A stretch of DNA of 37,639 nt from Halanaerobiales bacterium (lineage in GTDB: Bacteria > Bacillota > Halanaerobiia > B1SED10-174): assembly GCA_003551905.1 (NCBI GenBank), contig PUNT01000038.1:1-37639 (forward strand). The letters run 5' to 3'. The translations under genes and the position numbers were made by a program. Each line of letters starts with the position of its first letter. Within the stretch, counting starts at the first letter, position 1. Under the pieces are notes generated by a model, which was not told the origin of the DNA, made no database searches, and saw only the letters and a program-made list of their open reading frames with translations. This document shows positions 2,686 through 25,673 of the stretch, piece by piece.

Positions 2686-2723
2686 AAAAAAGTTAACGGC
2701 CCTTCCCGATATGGGTGGACCGT
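2686..2723 (-). terminator. Riboswitch expression-platform terminator
   Basis: On the - strand ACGGTCC (2723-2717) pairs with GGGCCGT (2702-2696) with one G-U pair, followed by TAAC and six T (2691-2686). It lies directly downstream of the c-di-GMP-I aptamer. Its loop and 3' arm overlap CTTCCCGATA (2702-2711, + strand), which is the exact complement of a segment at 2817-2826 on the other side of the aptamer, so aptamer closure and terminator formation should compete. Confidence 0.65.
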
Positions 2724-2737
2724 AAAGAAATAAAATA

Positions 2738-2826
2738 CTTCTTTCGGTAGCCCTGCCACCATAGCTATTGCCTTAGGTCGTGGCTTTGCGTCCCTGCTTT
2801 TCAACAGGTTTGCCTTTATCGGGAAG
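2738..2826 (-). ncRNA. Cyclic di-GMP-I (GEMM-I) riboswitch aptamer
   Basis: Read on the - strand, the segment carries the GEMM hallmarks in order: AAAGGCAAACC, a P1b hairpin closed by a GAAA tetraloop (CCTGTTGAAAAGCAGG), GGACGCAAAGCC, then CCTAAGG, and GGTGGCAGGGCTACCG. The match to the class I consensus is close throughout. A perfect 10-bp complement (TATCGGGAAG at 2817-2826 and CTTCCCGATA at 2702-2711 on the + strand) flanks the aptamer. It controls the secreted-protein gene at 2204-2644. If ligand binding stabilises this closing helix, the overlapping terminator is disrupted and the switch is ON with c-di-GMP; the direction is an inference. Confidence 0.92.
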
Positions 2827-3144: not shown

Positions 3145-3175
3145 GATTTTTTGAAATTATCTTGTATGCGAGTTG

Positions 3176-4042
3176 ATGGTAATGCTGAAGCTTAAATCTT
3201 TGAAGAATATATGCTGTATTCTAAGTTTTTTGTTCATCAGTCTTTTAATTTTTCCTCAAATTGCCCGGGCTCAGACAGGACAGCCACTTTTTTTAAGAAA
3301 ACCAGGCGGGCTGCAATTCACCATTGAATCCACCAGTAATGAAGTTGAGTTATCCTGGCATCAACAAACAGAAGAAGAGGATAAGGTTGATATATATTAT
3401 ATGGCTGAAGGTGACTTCACCGCTGAGAATGGCAACAGCATTCCAAAAGAGAAAATGATAGCTCATACACCTTACCAAGGGGGATTGTCCCTGGATGATT
3501 GGGTTTTATTCATGAGTGAGGAGGAAGAAGAAGGAGTGACTGTTCTCCTGGAATTGGATGACAGTGTTTGGGGTAGTTATCCGCCAGGAACTTATGAGGG
3601 CAAATTGATTTCCAATGTAGGGGGACCCGGGCAGAGAATCAATATCACCATAGAAATGGAATGGGATATGGTCCTTATAGTTTTTCCCCAGGAGCTGCAA
3701 ATAGATGCTGATAGCGGGCCGGGTTTTTACCCTGCCCGGCAGAATGTGACAATACAGGTTATTGCCAACAATGAAGACTGGGTTCTCATGATATCTGCTG
3801 GAGAGTTCGTACTGGCAGGTAACCCAGAAGAGACCCCTCCTCTCAGGAAAGAAGATCTATTCCTGAGCTTTGCAGAAGAAGGCCCCTACAAGAGTCTGGA
3901 ACAACCTGTGGAGATTTTTGGCAGTGAACACGGTTCTGAAGTTGAACTTGAGCTTTATTTCTGGTCCCAAACAAACTGGGGTTACAGAGCAGGTACCTAT
4001 GAGGGTTGTATCTATATTGATCTTTTAGAGGACAGCTTATAG
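3176..4042 (+). CDS. Secreted protein with two related beta-sandwich-like halves
   Basis: About 288 residues. A signal peptide spans roughly residues 1-33 (KNICCILSFLFISLLIF, cleavage near ARAQ). The mature part falls into two halves that end alike: PPGTYEGKLISNV near the middle and RAGTYEGCIYIDLL at the C-terminus, and each half has an N-terminal strand pattern (FTIESTSNEVELSW; VTIQVIANNEDWVLMI). This suggests an internal duplication of one beta-sandwich domain of the type seen in the neighbouring secreted proteins. The start is uncertain: TTG 3173, ATG 3176 and ATG 3182 are in frame and none has a strong SD, so translation may be weak. The gene is followed by the first class II c-di-GMP aptamer. 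It is probably a surface or matrix protein; no catalytic motif is visible. Confidence 0.7.
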   Translation: MVMLKLKSLKNICCILSFLFISLLIFPQIARAQTGQPLFLRKPGGLQFTIESTSNEVELSWHQQTEEEDKVDIYYMAEGDFTAENGNSIPKEKMIAHTPYQGGLSLDDWVLFMSEEEEEGVTVLLELDDSVWGSYPPGTYEGKLISNVGGPGQRINITIEMEWDMVLIVFPQELQIDADSGPGFYPARQNVTIQVIANNEDWVLMISAGEFVLAGNPEETPPLRKEDLFLSFAEEGPYKSLEQPVEIFGSEHGSEVELELYFWSQTNWGYRAGTYEGCIYIDLLEDSL

Positions 4043-4049
4043 CAATAGA

Positions 4050-4140
4050 CATTTCCTCATTGGAGACGATGATCTGCTGACTTTTAACTGGTCACCAATG
4101 AGTTGGCAGTGAGTCAGGGTGAAACCGACCGGTAGGAATG
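4050..4140 (+). ncRNA. Cyclic di-GMP-II riboswitch, copy 1, with SD-sequestering platform
   Basis: From memory of the Clostridium acetobutylicum class II aptamer, the core elements match in order: GGAGACGATGAT (reference GGAAACAAUGAU), TTTTAACTGGTCACC (reference UUUAAAUUGGGCAC), and GGTGAAACCGACC (reference GUGCAACCGACC). CTGACT (4076-4081 region) can pair with AGTCAG for the pseudoknot, and CATTTCCT closes with AGGAATG. TCCTCATTGG (4054-4063) is also complementary, with one G-U pair, to CCAATGGGGA at 4145-4154, which contains the Shine-Dalgarno site of the next gene. The two pairings exclude each other, so ligand binding should expose the SD: a translational ON switch. Confidence 0.8.
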
Positions 4141-4164
4141 TGAACCAATGGGGAGGTTTACAGA

Positions 4165-4668
4165 ATGAAGCAACTACTTATATTTTTTTTGATGTTTGCT
4201 CTGTTATTAGGAATAACCTACAGGGTAGAATCCATTAATAGCGAAGAATTATTGCTTTACATAGATATATATCCTTATGCGGAAATCGAGGTAATAGATA
4301 ATATTTTCATGGATGTTGATTTTGCTGCTGGATTTACTGTTGAGAGAAAAGCGCAGATTGACTACAGGGCTAATTGTAATGTGCAAATAATGGTGGAATC
4401 CCAGGGTTTTGATAATGCCCTGGACCAGATGGTAACCTACCGGCTTTCCAGGGATGGGCAGGACTGGGAAAATCCGGATGCTAGTTTGAAGCCCGGTCAA
4501 TCATTACCGGGAGCCCTGCACTTTTATTACGAAGATGGCCCTAAAGGAGAATTCTTGCTGGCAGCATTTCTTATAGCAGATGATGTGGGAGGGGAAAGCC
4601 CCTGGTTCTTAGTCGAAGCAGATGAATATCAGGACACTATTACCCTGACCATATCTTCTCTAGAATAA
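4165..4668 (+). CDS. Small secreted beta-rich protein, riboswitch-controlled paralogue 1
   Basis: The 167-residue product begins with a signal peptide (KQLLIFFLMFALLLGI) and otherwise lacks membrane segments. The pattern LYIDIYPYAEIEV, a central IDYRANCNVQIMVESQGFD and the C-terminal strand YQDTITLTISSLE are shared with the protein encoded at 4892-5443 (YAANFDMNITAESVGFD; YTDEITLTIEAQD), so the two are paralogues. The closing strand pattern resembles spore-coat-U/Csu-type or similar pilin subunits, but no family can be claimed firmly. GGGGAGG at 4150-4156 lies 8 nt before the ATG and is part of the segment that can be masked by the class II c-di-GMP riboswitch. The product is acidic. It is a candidate structural subunit of a surface fibre or matrix. 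Confidence 0.75.
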   Translation: MKQLLIFFLMFALLLGITYRVESINSEELLLYIDIYPYAEIEVIDNIFMDVDFAAGFTVERKAQIDYRANCNVQIMVESQGFDNALDQMVTYRLSRDGQDWENPDASLKPGQSLPGALHFYYEDGPKGEFLLAAFLIADDVGGESPWFLVEADEYQDTITLTISSLE

Positions 4669-4773: not shown

Positions 4774-4860
4774 TCCTTCATTGGAGGCCAGGAACTGCCA
4801 TCCTCTAACTGGTCACCAACAGGGTGGCAGGGAGCCAGTGGTGAAACCGACCATGAAGGA
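4774..4860 (+). ncRNA. Cyclic di-GMP-II riboswitch, copy 2, with SD-sequestering platform
   Basis: This second copy shares AACTGGTCACCAA and GTGAAACCGACC with copy 1 and with the class II consensus. TCCTTCAT (4774-4781) closes with ATGAAGGA (4853-4860), and CTGCCA can pair with TGGCAG inside the aptamer for the pseudoknot. CCTCCTTCATTGG (4772-4784) is complementary, with one bulged T, to CCAATGAGGAGG at 4871-4882, which is the Shine-Dalgarno site of the gene starting at 4892. The platform is therefore the same as in copy 1 although the sequences differ, which is good evidence for function. Prediction: c-di-GMP turns translation on. The stretch 4669-4770 before it holds no gene that I can recognise. 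Confidence 0.8.
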
Positions 4861-4891
4861 AAGTTAAAAACCAATGAGGAGGTTAACTGAA

Positions 4892-5443
4892 ATGAAAAAA
4901 TTAGGTGTTATAGTTCTTACTTTGTTAATAGTAGCTGGTTTGGCTTTGGTTGTTGCTTCTGATGAAAATAATGAAAGCTATGCTTCTGATACTCTGAATG
5001 TAATTATCGATATTCCAAAACATGCTATTCTGGTTTTTACTCAAGACAACCTGCAAATAACCCTGGATACTGATGACTTTCCCGAAGGCATTGAAGAGGG
5101 TTTTGATGATATTGAGTCTGACTCAGTGCCGGTCAATTATGCAGCCAATTTCGACATGAATATTACTGCTGAGTCGGTAGGGTTTGATGGAGGTTCAGAG
5201 CACATATTAGATGATATGGTAGTTTATCAGTATTGTAAGGACGGAGATTTTGATGAGGACCTTGATGGTTCTTCTTTTAATGCCAGTACTGCTCCTGCTG
5301 AGCCAATATACTCTCCTGAGCGAGGAGGAGGCACTTTTTACTTGAGGGCATTAATAAGTTCAGCCAACGAAGATGCTTGGCATGCAGTTGCCGCCGGAGA
5401 TTACACAGATGAAATTACTCTAACCATAGAAGCTCAAGATTAG
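4892..5443 (+). CDS. Small secreted acidic beta-rich protein, riboswitch-controlled paralogue 2
   Basis: I place the start at ATG 4892, 9 nt after AGGAGG (4877-4882), rather than at the in-frame ATG 4874 that lies within the SD region. The 183-residue protein has a signal peptide (KKLGVIVLTLLIVAGLALV) and a very acidic mature part rich in D and E. It is related to the protein at 4165-4668: same central motif (NYAANFDMNITAESVGFD) and same C-terminal strand (AGDYTDEITLTIEAQD). The strand LNVIIDIPKHAIL near the mature N-terminus parallels LDVTATIPVM of the - strand gene at 2204. The SD is controlled by the second class II c-di-GMP riboswitch. Candidate structural subunit; no enzymatic motif is seen. 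Confidence 0.75.
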   Translation: MKKLGVIVLTLLIVAGLALVVASDENNESYASDTLNVIIDIPKHAILVFTQDNLQITLDTDDFPEGIEEGFDDIESDSVPVNYAANFDMNITAESVGFDGGSEHILDDMVVYQYCKDGDFDEDLDGSSFNASTAPAEPIYSPERGGGTFYLRALISSANEDAWHAVAAGDYTDEITLTIEAQD

Positions 5444-5611: not shown

Positions 5612-7123
5612 ATGGCAAAGAGATTTCTGTTATATTCCCTGTTATTACTGGCAATTCTTCTGACATATCCCCAGGAATGCTATGCTCTTGGGGTTCGTCC
5701 CCTGGTTATTGACCTGGATCTGGAACCGGGTGATAGAGCTACCTTTGAGCTGGAGCTTACCCCTGGAGAACAAGGTCGGACAGTGAAACTGGGTTTATTT
5801 GAACCAAGACAGCTCCTTACCGGTGGTTTGGAATACCGGCAGGCAACTCCCCAAGAGTATTACCCAATTGGCTGGCTGGACCTGCCGGAAGAGGTTACAG
5901 TACCGCCTGGGGAGAATGTTACAGTGGAGTGCCAGGTAAGGGTTCCCTATGATGCCTTCGGTTCCAACACTGTGATCATCATGGTTGAGCCCGGGGTTGA
6001 AGATGCTGAAACCGGTATTGTTTTCCGGGTCAGGTATGCTGTGCGAGTTAATATCAATGTTCCAAGACCGGGCTTAAGAGCCCAGATAGATATTGAGGAT
6101 TTTTTCCTGGAATCAGATGAAGAAGGCAGGCCTCAGGTGGTAGCCCATGTGAAAAATCCTTCCCCCCTCCACTACAATACCACTGCTGAGGTTACCATAA
6201 GAGATGAGAACCGGCGGCTGGTGGAAAGGGTGGCAATGAATTCCCAGGCTGGCTGGCAGGCTGGCCGGGGAACAAGCAGAATTTATGCTGGTGCAGAGGT
6301 GGTCTTGTTGGGGGAAGTAACTGAATATCTGGCGCCCGGGGAATATGATCTCCGTCTCTTTATAAATTTTGCTGATGGCAGGCAGTCCATTAGTTCTAGC
6401 AGAGTTAGTGTGGAGGAAGGGCAGTTTGTGCAGCCCCGGGAATATTTACGTTTTTCACCGCAAGTCGTTGAGGATAGTTTGCGGCCAGGAGCTTCTTTAA
6501 CTCAAGCCTTGCAGCTGGAGAACCGAAGTGGAGATCCTGTATTTGTGGAGATTAGAACCCAAAAAATTGAGCAGGAATATCCCCATTGTGTTTTTGATTC
6601 TTTTGGTATTGAATTCCGTGGAGGGCGTGATTTTGAGCTGGCACCTAACCGATCAACAAGGACAGTTTTAATCAGCCGTTCTCCCCGGAATATAGAGGTG
6701 GGGGGCTATTATGGCTACCTCAATATAGATGTTTTCTCTAAGGAAAGGGAGCTTCTGGAAACCCATCAGATTCCCTTCAGCATTACTGTGGGTGAAGTGG
6801 AGGAGTATGAAGGGGCAATCAGGAGTGTTGAGTACGATTATTTTACAGAAGAATATCTCTTTAGTGTTTATTTGCTGAATAAAAGTAAAGTCCACATGGT
6901 ACCCACTGGAGTGCTTTATCTCATAGATGAGGACGGAGATGTGGTAAGGTCAATGAGACTGGATATGCAGGAAGGGCAGTTGAACATACTTCCCCAGAAG
7001 GGAGCTATACTCACAGGAACTGCCCGAGATTTAGAACCGGGTGATTATACAGCGAGAATTGTAATAAATTATGAGAATCAGGAAGTAACATCTGCAGAAA
7101 TACCTTTAAATATTAAGCCATGA
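5612..7123 (+). CDS. Exported, internally duplicated protein resembling a periplasmic pilus chaperone
   Basis: I prefer ATG 5612 (SD GGAGAAGG, then a clean signal peptide ending CYA at residue 24) over the in-frame ATG 5567, which overlaps the right arm of a hairpin. The 503-residue protein consists of two repeats. Residues about 26-150 and 278-395 each resemble the N-terminal Ig-like domain of PapD-type chaperones (VRPLVIDLDLEPGD; LRFSPQVVEDSLRPGA), with a Pro-Gly-rich turn and terminal strand (FRVRYAVRVNINVP; HQIPFSITVGEV). Residues about 157-268 and 401-500 are a second repeated domain, each ending in PGEYDLRLFINF or PGDYTARIVINY. Next comes a secretin gene, with no usher. A role in folding or guiding the secreted subunits is inferred. 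Distant alternatives are other Ig-like exported proteins such as DUF916-type scaffolds. Confidence 0.65.
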   Translation: MAKRFLLYSLLLLAILLTYPQECYALGVRPLVIDLDLEPGDRATFELELTPGEQGRTVKLGLFEPRQLLTGGLEYRQATPQEYYPIGWLDLPEEVTVPPGENVTVECQVRVPYDAFGSNTVIIMVEPGVEDAETGIVFRVRYAVRVNINVPRPGLRAQIDIEDFFLESDEEGRPQVVAHVKNPSPLHYNTTAEVTIRDENRRLVERVAMNSQAGWQAGRGTSRIYAGAEVVLLGEVTEYLAPGEYDLRLFINFADGRQSISSSRVSVEEGQFVQPREYLRFSPQVVEDSLRPGASLTQALQLENRSGDPVFVEIRTQKIEQEYPHCVFDSFGIEFRGGRDFELAPNRSTRTVLISRSPRNIEVGGYYGYLNIDVFSKERELLETHQIPFSITVGEVEEYEGAIRSVEYDYFTEEYLFSVYLLNKSKVHMVPTGVLYLIDEDGDVVRSMRLDMQEGQLNILPQKGAILTGTARDLEPGDYTARIVINYENQEVTSAEIPLNIKP

Positions 7124-7136
7124 AAGGGGCATAAGG

Positions 7137-8303
7137 ATGCGAATTACTGGTATAGGGTTGTTGGTTTTCCTGCTTTTAGTGAGTTTGCCTGTTATGGCTG
7201 AGGAAGAAGAGCTCCTGGTTTCTACCCTGTTTTTTGAAACGGATATCAGAGAAGCCCTGGATGAGCTGGCCATGCAGACCGGTGTCAACATTATTTTTGA
7301 TGATTCTGTCCGGGGAACGGTGACTCTGGATCTGGAGGATGTGCCCCTGGAAAGGGCCCTGCGCATGGTACTCATCAGTGGCGGATATTCCTTCCGGAAA
7401 ATTGAAGACTTTTACCTGGTAGGCTTGCCGGATCCTCGCAGTCCAGCTTTTCAATCACTTTCTGAGACAGAGACTATAAAGCTGGAGTATTTAAGCACCC
7501 AGCATGCCATGGAACTAACCCCATCTTTCTATGAAGATTTTCTCAAAGTGAGCCATGATCAGAACATGATTACCATTACTGCGCCTTTAGAGATTATAGA
7601 AAGTTTCAAGGAACATCTGCAGAAAATAGATGTTCGCCCTCGTCAGCTGCAGATAAAGGTTCTGGCAACAGAGATATCAAAAGGAGCCCTGCAGGAATTA
7701 GGGACCAGTGTTCTGGAGTATTCTTTTGAGGCCGGGCAGGAGGTTAAGGATGATTGGCTTACCAGTTTCGGCATGGAGCTGGGAAAGATTACCCTGGAAA
7801 CCGATGTTTTTGGAAAACTCCTGACCGATTTACATATGCTGGAGGGGGAGGAAAGGGCAGAAATAACTGCAGATCCCTGGGTAGTGGTAGCTGACCGGCA
7901 GCAGGTAGATCTCTTCGTTGGTGAAGAACAGATTATTATCCTTGAACCTGAAGGAGCCCCGGCCCGTATTGAACGGGTGAATGTGGGGGTGCTTCTAAAC
8001 ATAGTGCCGGAAATATTAAATGACGAGGAAATACGCCTTGCAATATCGCCGGAGATCAGTCATCTCAGGGGTGAAGAGCCCAAGGGGCTGAGCATCAGAA
8101 GAAGCGAACTTTCTACCACTGTTTATGCCAGAGATGGACAAACCCTGGTTCTGAGCGGCATTACTATTGAGGAAAAACTGGAGCAAGCCAGGGGTTTTCC
8201 TGTTCTCAGGAATATTCCAATTCTGCGCTGGATATTTGGCCTGGAGGAAGAAACGGTGGTAAAAAGAGAACTCCTTCTTTTCATTACCCCGGAAATTATC
8301 TGA
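7137..8303 (+). CDS. Short secretin (GspD/PilQ-type outer-membrane channel)
   Basis: The 388-residue protein has a signal peptide (ITGIGLLVFLLLVSLPVMA), an STN-like domain at about residues 30-80 (IREALDELAMQTGVNIIFDD, then VTLDLEDVPLERAL), a short N1-like domain at about 105-155, and a secretin core to the end. Core hallmarks are visible: VGVLLNIVPEI, VYARDGQTLVLSGI, the lip motif PVLRNIPILRWIFG, and a final strand ELLLFITPEII. Secretins form large ring channels in outer membranes in type II/III secretion, type IV pili and competence. This one is shorter than GspD or PilQ, and no ATPase, pseudopilin or inner-membrane component is present in the window. The ATG sits 13 bp after the chaperone-like gene, so they are co-transcribed. 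Confidence 0.85.
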   Translation: MRITGIGLLVFLLLVSLPVMAEEEELLVSTLFFETDIREALDELAMQTGVNIIFDDSVRGTVTLDLEDVPLERALRMVLISGGYSFRKIEDFYLVGLPDPRSPAFQSLSETETIKLEYLSTQHAMELTPSFYEDFLKVSHDQNMITITAPLEIIESFKEHLQKIDVRPRQLQIKVLATEISKGALQELGTSVLEYSFEAGQEVKDDWLTSFGMELGKITLETDVFGKLLTDLHMLEGEERAEITADPWVVVADRQQVDLFVGEEQIIILEPEGAPARIERVNVGVLLNIVPEILNDEEIRLAISPEISHLRGEEPKGLSIRRSELSTTVYARDGQTLVLSGITIEEKLEQARGFPVLRNIPILRWIFGLEEETVVKRELLLFITPEII

Positions 8304-8313
8304 GGAGGAAATT

Positions 8314-9594
8314 ATGAAACAAAAAGCGGTATTCTTCCTTATTACTGGAGCTTTACTCATGGCAGCGTTGTTTCCGGGACAGGTTGAAGGTGCTCTTCAT
8401 CTAACTCCCCTGCCTCATGTAGAAGGTGAAGAGGTTGAGCCTGCACATCTAGATTCCCTGCTCATTGCCTATAGCCTTAAAATAGTAGAACTCACAGATT
8501 ATTACCACAACATCTTTGGCCTGGAAAGGTTAGAAGTTAGCTATCCAGATCATCCCGGCAGCCTGGCCATTTTATATGACACAGAACTGGGAGAGCTCAT
8601 GGCTAGGGTTCCTTATGCCAGCCTTGTTATGAGAGTTCAAGAAAAGCTGGATAGGGAGAGTTACCTGTCATCTCCCTGGATAGTTTGTGCTCCTGGACAG
8701 GTTGCAAAAATGGGTGTTATTCATGAAGATATTGGCTCGGATAAGCCCGGGCCAGGGTTGGAAGTATTATTTGATCCTGAAAGAATAGATGAGGATAGAG
8801 GTAGTGTGCTTACCCATATTGAGCTTACTGACCATGGGACCGCAGCAAAACTAAGCACTCAGCTGTGGTTAACTGAACAACCTCAACCACTGGCAGTGGT
8901 AACAGTTAAAGATAAGGATTATCAAAGAGGTTTTACCCGGGAGAGGAGAGTTAAAGAGCGGTACTTTGCAGTTTATGGTGCTGCAAAATTTTTGCATCAG
9001 CTCCCTCAGGATAAAACATTTGCCATTGCCGGTCTGGATAACATGGCAGAACTTTTCTGGCCGGAGCCGAAAAGGGAACTGGATAGCATGTTCATTATAA
9101 CACTCCCCCTCGCTGGCCAGGAGGATTATCTGGATCTTTTTCTATCAGCCTGGGTGACAGAAGAAAATCTTTTAAGTGTTGTTGTGCAGAATATCAATCC
9201 TGGTTTTGAAATTGGATTTGAACAGAGAATAATGTCCGGTGATCTACGTTTTGGTTTGCGTTTAATTCACTTTGGTCCGGATGATCCTTTTATAGGATTT
9301 GGTTTCAGTGATGACACAGAGCCTATAAATAATGTTCATCTGTATGCTGGACTTTATCCCCTTATGTATTCTTGTAAAAGAGGGAAAATGTCTGCACCAT
9401 ACTGGTGGGCTGGCAGTCTTTTAAAGCATGAGGGTTTTATGCTGGAATTTAGTTATTCTTCAGCTGGAGATTATCAGAACTTCATGGGGCGTACTGGTTA
9501 TGAACTGGCTGATAATTTCCTGCCAGTGCTGGAATATCGTACCAATCTTGAGGGGAGATGGAGCGTTAATATGGGTTTCAAGAAGGAATTTTAG
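8314..9594 (+). CDS. Exported protein with a beta-barrel-like C-terminal half ending in Phe
   Basis: The 426-residue protein starts 10 bp after the secretin stop, with AGGAGG 5 nt upstream of the ATG, and has a signal peptide (KQKAVFFLITGALLMAALF, cleavage near VEGA). Residues about 30-260 look globular. From about residue 265 on there are repeated amphipathic strands (LFLSAWVT; LLSVVVQNI; FEIGFEQRI; LRFGLRLIHFG; VHLYAGLY; FMLEFSYSS), and the last strand RWSVNMGFKKEF alternates hydrophobic residues and ends in Phe. That terminal signature is the one recognised by the BAM machinery in outer-membrane barrels. I do not recognise a family. It could be the outer-membrane partner or pilotin-like component of the secretin. 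The barrel assignment is an inference from pattern alone. Confidence 0.6.
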   Translation: MKQKAVFFLITGALLMAALFPGQVEGALHLTPLPHVEGEEVEPAHLDSLLIAYSLKIVELTDYYHNIFGLERLEVSYPDHPGSLAILYDTELGELMARVPYASLVMRVQEKLDRESYLSSPWIVCAPGQVAKMGVIHEDIGSDKPGPGLEVLFDPERIDEDRGSVLTHIELTDHGTAAKLSTQLWLTEQPQPLAVVTVKDKDYQRGFTRERRVKERYFAVYGAAKFLHQLPQDKTFAIAGLDNMAELFWPEPKRELDSMFIITLPLAGQEDYLDLFLSAWVTEENLLSVVVQNINPGFEIGFEQRIMSGDLRFGLRLIHFGPDDPFIGFGFSDDTEPINNVHLYAGLYPLMYSCKRGKMSAPYWWAGSLLKHEGFMLEFSYSSAGDYQNFMGRTGYELADNFLPVLEYRTNLEGRWSVNMGFKKEF

Positions 9595-25575: not shown

Positions 25576-25673
25576 AAGTATGCGGTTGGTATCAAGTTGA
25601 ACCATACCGGATACTTTATTGTTAGGTGTATTCGCTTGGATCCCTGGCGACCGAGACGAAAGGAGGAGATTTT
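25576..25673 (+). promoter_or_regulatory. Structured 5' leader of the pantothenate operon
   Basis: About 90 nt lie between the predicted start point and the upstream ORF. AAGTAT (25576-25581) can pair with ATACTT, and GGTAT with ATACC inside it, forming an interrupted hairpin at or near the 5' end. No T-box motif and no known riboswitch core is visible. A conserved 'pan' RNA motif has been reported before pantothenate genes in several phyla; I cannot recall its consensus well enough to claim a match. Confidence 0.4.

Follow-up and report, generated by a model that had tools for sequence, protein, structure and literature searches.

The locus examined here raises the question of why two unrelated classes of c-di-GMP riboswitch should lie side by side at a single set of secreted-protein genes, one class on each strand. 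It is found near one end of a 37,639 bp stretch of DNA from a Halanaerobiales bacterium [GenBank accession number PUNT01000038.1], referred to below as the window. The original prediction placed a class I aptamer on the - strand 1.3 kb from two class II switches on the + strand, and proposed that the two classes provide different ligand thresholds or different output levels for related secreted proteins. Searches with Rfam 15 covariance models at gathering thresholds recovered all three aptamers, and both classes are therefore present at one secreted-protein locus. The two class II elements lie on the + strand as proposed, but at distances of 1.23 and 1.95 kb, and one belongs to the class II-GAG subclass. 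The arrangement probably provides this Halanaerobiales-type bacterium with reciprocal responses to c-di-GMP at a locus for a surface fibre, the class I element being predicted to turn its gene OFF and the class II elements to turn theirs ON.

The class I (GEMM-I) aptamer core occupies positions 2743-2824 (- strand) and matches RF01051 over its full length (model positions 1-87; 75.2 bits, E 3.6e-13, gathering score 35 bits). By covariance model this is a c-di-GMP-I riboswitch, and it would be expected to bind the ligand and to control the gene downstream. In the RF01051 alignment, AAAGGCAAACC places a G at the position contacting the first base of the ligand, which predicts selectivity for c-di-GMP rather than cGAMP. 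This G corresponds to Vc2 G20. Synthesis of the ligand is possible in this organism, whose genome has 12 strong full-length GGDEF domains.

The 10 bp inverted repeat reported originally is exact (5′ arm tatcgggaag, 2817-2826; 3′ arm cttcccgata, 2702-2711), and its arms pair when the - strand leader is folded to minimum energy, this energy being 5.6 standard deviations below that of shuffled sequences. The overlapping terminator is also present. Its stem-loop (ACGGUCC-A-CCC/GGG-AA-GGGCCGU, 2696-2723, -15.1 kcal/mol) includes the 3′ arm of the repeat, with the U-run at 2686-2691. A scan for promoters on either strand gave sites no more common than in shuffled sequences.

The + strand genes form an apparent operon. 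The first (3173-4042), recognised from the homologous position in other loci, predicts a two-domain secreted protein of 289 aa. The class II-GAG aptamer (4053-4138; RF03169, 44.6 bits) and the class II aptamer (4774-4860; RF01786, 63.8 bits), both above gathering score, each precede a gene for a small, secreted, pilin-like subunit. The products of these genes, 167 aa (4165-4668) and 183 aa from the ATG used (4892-5443), are 36% identical, and their joint profile, A6, finds the CsuE pilin domain at E 5e-4 and gives a weak match to Caf1 (E 0.03-0.06). A structure prediction for a class II subunit was discarded because the model was too poor (pLDDT 41). An Ig-like protein of 503 aa (5612-7123), chaperone-like by position and with some relatives that match WxL-interacting-protein domains, is followed by a secretin (7137-8303; PF00263, E 9e-34) with STN and N0 domains, of a subfamily that is kept in homologous loci. 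The last gene (8314-9594) predicts a secreted protein of 426 aa, conserved in position with low similarity, which is probably an outer-membrane partner and may be a barrel.

The same gene set recurs in many relatives, often with class II aptamers. The putatively pilin-like subunits, with their match to CsuE, and the conserved Ig-like exported protein resemble components of chaperone-usher and curli loci. Unlike chaperone-usher loci, a secretin stands where the usher would be (5612-9594), an arrangement that is conserved across the class and would represent a putative assembly route; no usher match was found among the locus proteins scanned. The gene at 845-2062 encodes a transcriptional regulator of the BTAD type, whose C-terminal half domain is GGDEF-like but has WSDAQF in place of the GGDEF motif. 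Similar regulators adjoin fibre loci in L104, L127, L128 and L131, and the class I gene in L092.

The gene behind the class I element (2204-2644, - strand) encodes a secreted protein of 146 aa with no Pfam match, and its family has no model in Pfam or NCBIfam. A profile combining this protein with those under class I control in G018 and G040 was run against 59 related genomes of the class and revealed 13 clear family members, of which the window protein is a divergent one. A profile built without it still found the window gene as the sole match in its own genome (E 4.5e-6, 26.7 bits). The 13 members are distributed over five families of the class, and each is directly preceded, on its own strand, by a class I aptamer (RF01051 or RF03167), with two in tandem in G022 and G037. 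The family was thus never found without a class I switch in the 59 genomes, and this association gives an unnamed family a testable role. A further genome, G041, was left out of the count, as its class I leader persists and its genes look decayed. At this locus (L073, 4243-5071, - strand) both the class I and class II leaders are kept, but the gene for the class II subunit appears disrupted and a class I gene was not found.

In four genomes, namely that of the window (G000), G018, G040 and G045, the switch of the family gene has a class II aptamer no more than 3.1 kb away. The G039 contig is interrupted between the class I and class II regions. G045 is Halanaerobium saccharolyticum MA284_T2 [NZ_SNWX01000018.1], order Halanaerobiales, where a curli operon (curlin repeats, CsgF and CsgG, as in known curli loci) has the class II switch ahead of it and the class I gene behind it. 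The pairing therefore occurs with two unrelated types of fibre, the secretin/pilin-like locus and curli. Each class is common, class I being found in 55/61 and class II in 43/61 of the genomes searched, and c-di-GMP riboswitches often precede genes for surface proteins. Furthermore, most Halanaerobium genomes carry the class I gene without a neighbouring class II fibre operon. On these grounds the two elements could be independent and have become neighbours by chance. However, a class II aptamer is within 3.1 kb of 4 of the 13 family genes, a closeness shared by about 2 of the remaining class I sites, some 180 in number (Fisher p about 2e-4, from approximate counts that are uncorrected for relatedness), and the paired loci represent three lineages and both fibre types, making chance placement unlikely. 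Two other arrangements were seen. A weak class I match (37.9 bits) lies beside the fibre locus of G011 with no gene behind it, and in G013 (L071, 6457-7041, + strand) class I and class II aptamers are about 400 nt apart on one strand, with no fibre locus.

To assess the direction of the class I switch, progressively longer transcripts were folded, their length being measured from window position 2835. At 104-112 nt, the minimum-energy structure has the aptamer closed by a 7 bp P1 helix that pairs GUACUUC (2823-2829) with GAAGUAU (2735-2741), the antiterminator strand being still unmade. From 116 nt onward, P1 is replaced in the minimum-energy fold by an antiterminator hairpin, ACCGAAAGAAGUA-UUU-UAUUUCUUUACGGU (2719-2748; -10.6 kcal/mol alone), that consumes the 3′ strand of P1, the pocket-side CC and the 5′ arm of the terminator. 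From 132 nt, the 10 bp helix (2817-2826:2702-2711) covers the 3′ arm of the terminator. Both arms of the terminator are held in the resulting ligand-free read-through fold, at -55.0 kcal/mol compared with -43.0 kcal/mol for P1 plus terminator. Because the two folds are separated by 12 kcal/mol, the choice between them would be made during transcription, that is, under kinetic control. Forcing P1 raises the mean pairing probability of the terminator from 0.00 to 0.96 in the window leader, and from 0.17 to 0.94 in that of the f1 relative G005. When the 43 nt platform was shuffled 300 times, a terminator-like hairpin arose in 19 shuffles and the same switch behaviour in one.

These alternative structures predict that the class I leader is a transcriptional OFF switch. 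Binding of c-di-GMP while the leader is being transcribed would lock P1 (2823-2829:2735-2741) and thereby block both the antiterminator hairpin and the 10 bp closing helix, the latter because the 5′ arm of the repeat overlaps the 5′ strand of P1 at 2823-2826. The terminator would then form, and at high c-di-GMP the 146 aa protein would remain unmade. In the absence of ligand, the antiterminator hairpin and the 10 bp helix would hold the two terminator arms and allow read-through.

The label "closing", given to the repeat in the original prediction, suggests the reverse, an ON switch in which the ligand pre-organises the ends of the aptamer so that the 10 bp helix forms and termination is prevented. 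That helix could coexist with the aptamer core, as contact of its 5′ arm with the model is limited to the first eight positions, which are weakly conserved, and it belongs to the minimum-energy fold. However, the read-through fold as a whole is incompatible with P1, both through the overlap at 2823-2826 and because the antiterminator takes the 3′ strand of P1 together with the CC, and homologous class I leaders have the anatomy of OFF switches. An ON response of the class I element is considered very unlikely.

The OFF anatomy, seen in every lineage of the family, takes two forms among the homologues. In f1 (the window and G005) and f5 (G018, G039 and G040), the aptamer is followed by a terminator, with the U-run starting 43-51 nt downstream. 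In f2 (Halanaerobium), f7 and f8, 7-14 nt separate the end of the aptamer from the start codon, and the Shine-Dalgarno sequence itself serves as the 3′ strand of P1. The P1/Shine-Dalgarno sequences of these three (UAAAAGGAG, GGAGGUAA and GGAGGUG) are lineage-specific yet complementary to their partner strands. The tandem designs of G022 and G037 have both forms, a first aptamer with a terminator and a second over the Shine-Dalgarno; in L168 (8735-8989, - strand) and L167 (8585-8805, - strand), a two-level OFF response of one gene is predicted from this order. Both the terminator design and the occlusion design are predicted to be OFF. For f5, this reading is based on the overlap of P1 with the antiterminator and on transient folds, as the terminator in two of the three leaders is stable with or without P1 (the thermodynamic minimum without it). 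The sign thus appears to have been kept across lineages while the level of output has shifted from transcription (f1, f5) to translation (f2, f7, f8). Its retention through a change of platform points to a real need to silence the protein when fibres are made, and these leaders offer natural material for an evolutionary comparison of how riboswitches exchange one level of output for another.

Different output levels for the two classes had been proposed, and this holds within the window, where class I is coupled to a terminator and both class II elements face a Shine-Dalgarno sequence. In the class II-GAG leader, the Shine-Dalgarno region CCAATGGGGAGGT (4145-4157) is complementary over 13 bp to the 5′ strand of P1 (4051-4063). 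In the second leader, CCAATGAGG (4871-4879), which adjoins and overlaps the Shine-Dalgarno, is complementary over 9 bp to the P1 5′ strand at 4776-4784. Once the Shine-Dalgarno region has been transcribed, the minimum-energy fold changes from one containing P1 to one covering the Shine-Dalgarno, most clearly in the element at 4774. When P1 is forced in the two window leaders, the accessibility of the Shine-Dalgarno increases from 0.16 to 0.50 in one and from 0.18 to 0.58 in the other. The unpaired probability likewise increased on P1 formation in most of 15 class II leaders, with no computed rise in the elements of G000:C102, G018a and G019. Among homologues, the anti-Shine-Dalgarno pairing covaries, with CUCAUUGG:CCAAUGAG, CUCUUUGG:CCAAAGAG, CGUUGG:CCAACG, CUAAUUUG:CAAAUUAG and UUAUUGG:CCAAUAA all represented.

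The class II elements therefore look like translational ON switches, with the P1 5′ strand also serving as an anti-Shine-Dalgarno that covaries with its target. On stabilisation of P1 by c-di-GMP in each aptamer, the Shine-Dalgarno would be freed from that strand and the two pilin-like subunits translated. Control of translation would suit an apparent operon, because the class II elements lie between its genes and a terminator at these sites would silence the downstream assembly genes too, which translational control should spare. Termination would be safe for the class I gene, which is divergent and forms a unit of its own. A further arrangement of class II elements was observed in L135 (6525-6703, - strand), where class II and class II-GAG aptamers are in direct tandem 4 nt apart with one subunit gene downstream.

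The adjacent genes of this locus thus have opposite signs, predicted from structure, via two aptamer classes. The remaining alternative, preferred in the original prediction, is that both classes act in the same direction with different thresholds, so that fibre subunits are expressed in stages with rising c-di-GMP; this would agree with two aptamer classes on two platforms, presumably differing in affinity and kinetics, and with the distant similarity of the class I and class II proteins, but the predicted signs are opposite, and it is the sign and not the type of platform that is kept across lineages, leaving the threshold explanation highly improbable. The opposite sign was missed originally, and sign, rather than threshold, is likely to be the key point of the arrangement.

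Reciprocal logic of this kind is already known from Clostridioides difficile, where zmpI (CD2830) is preceded by the class I riboswitch Cdi1_12 (OFF) and the adjoining CD2831 by the class II riboswitch Cdi2_3 (ON), and where the ZmpI protease releases the CD2831 adhesin at low c-di-GMP (PMC4591827, PMC3649979). The two loci are alike in that adjacent genes for secreted or surface proteins are repressed through class I and activated through class II (in the window, by prediction), and in that the class I gene is a separate unit. In C. difficile, however, the OFF gene encodes a protease that cuts the ON adhesin, whereas here it belongs to a small family without similarity to proteases. Here, moreover, an apparent operon contains the class II elements, which are predicted to act on translation, and their targets are pilin-like subunits or curli of diderm Halanaerobiales. 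That one C. difficile gene pair is the known case of a locus at which unrelated RNA classes read a single ligand in opposite senses, and the same logic is predicted here in a distant diderm lineage beside two different fibre systems. No description of such an opposed pair was found in the open-licence literature on Halanaerobium together with c-di-GMP or curli, or on both riboswitch classes together. What is new is the protein family and the predicted opposed pair in another lineage.

Individual switch designs also have counterparts. Cd1, from the C. difficile flgB leader, is a GEMM-I transcriptional OFF switch under kinetic control, and Vc2 is a translational OFF switch of the same class (PMC9262584). 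The window element resembles Cd1 in that the strand that stabilises the aptamer is shared with the antiterminator, the ligand would lead to the terminator, and control would be kinetic. It differs from Cd1 in that P1 is a clear 7 bp helix and in the second, 10 bp helix that also holds the 3′ arm of the terminator. Vc2 resembles the f2, f7 and f8 homologues, in which P1 is predicted to cover the Shine-Dalgarno, whereas the window element uses a terminator instead.

Possible roles for the class I protein are those of an alternative subunit of the fibre, its cap or its antagonist. Residues invariant in the family include a Q, an SN..W.L motif and G..G. The class I and class II proteins had been described as related secreted proteins. 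Both are secreted, and their relationship is tentative, the two profiles aligning over 102 columns with a probability of 66% when signal peptides are removed. The predicted structure of a Halanaerobium member (pLDDT 78.8) is mostly beta after the signal helix. A Foldseek search with this model returned nothing below E 0.001; pilin domains (PapG, PapA and Pyrobaculum pili) were found with high probability and low TM-scores, and are taken as a hint only. No protease family in Pfam or NCBIfam matched the window protein or its relatives above noise. The curli inhibitors CsgC and CsgH were considered as possible identities and rejected, as no sequence or fold support was seen. It is conceivable, though we would not presently favour it, that the family is a dedicated anti-fibre factor or a replacement subunit, produced solely at low c-di-GMP, that partners unrelated fibre machines, forming a general two-riboswitch toggle between this protein and the fibre subunits that arose separately from the C. 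difficile protease-adhesin pair.

Two further RNA elements were detected in this genome. A pan motif (RF01749, 50.1 bits) is located at 25583-25663 (+ strand) of the window, and a PYLIS_3 pyrrolysine insertion element (mttB, 49 bits) is located elsewhere in the same genome (L069, 976-1075, + strand).
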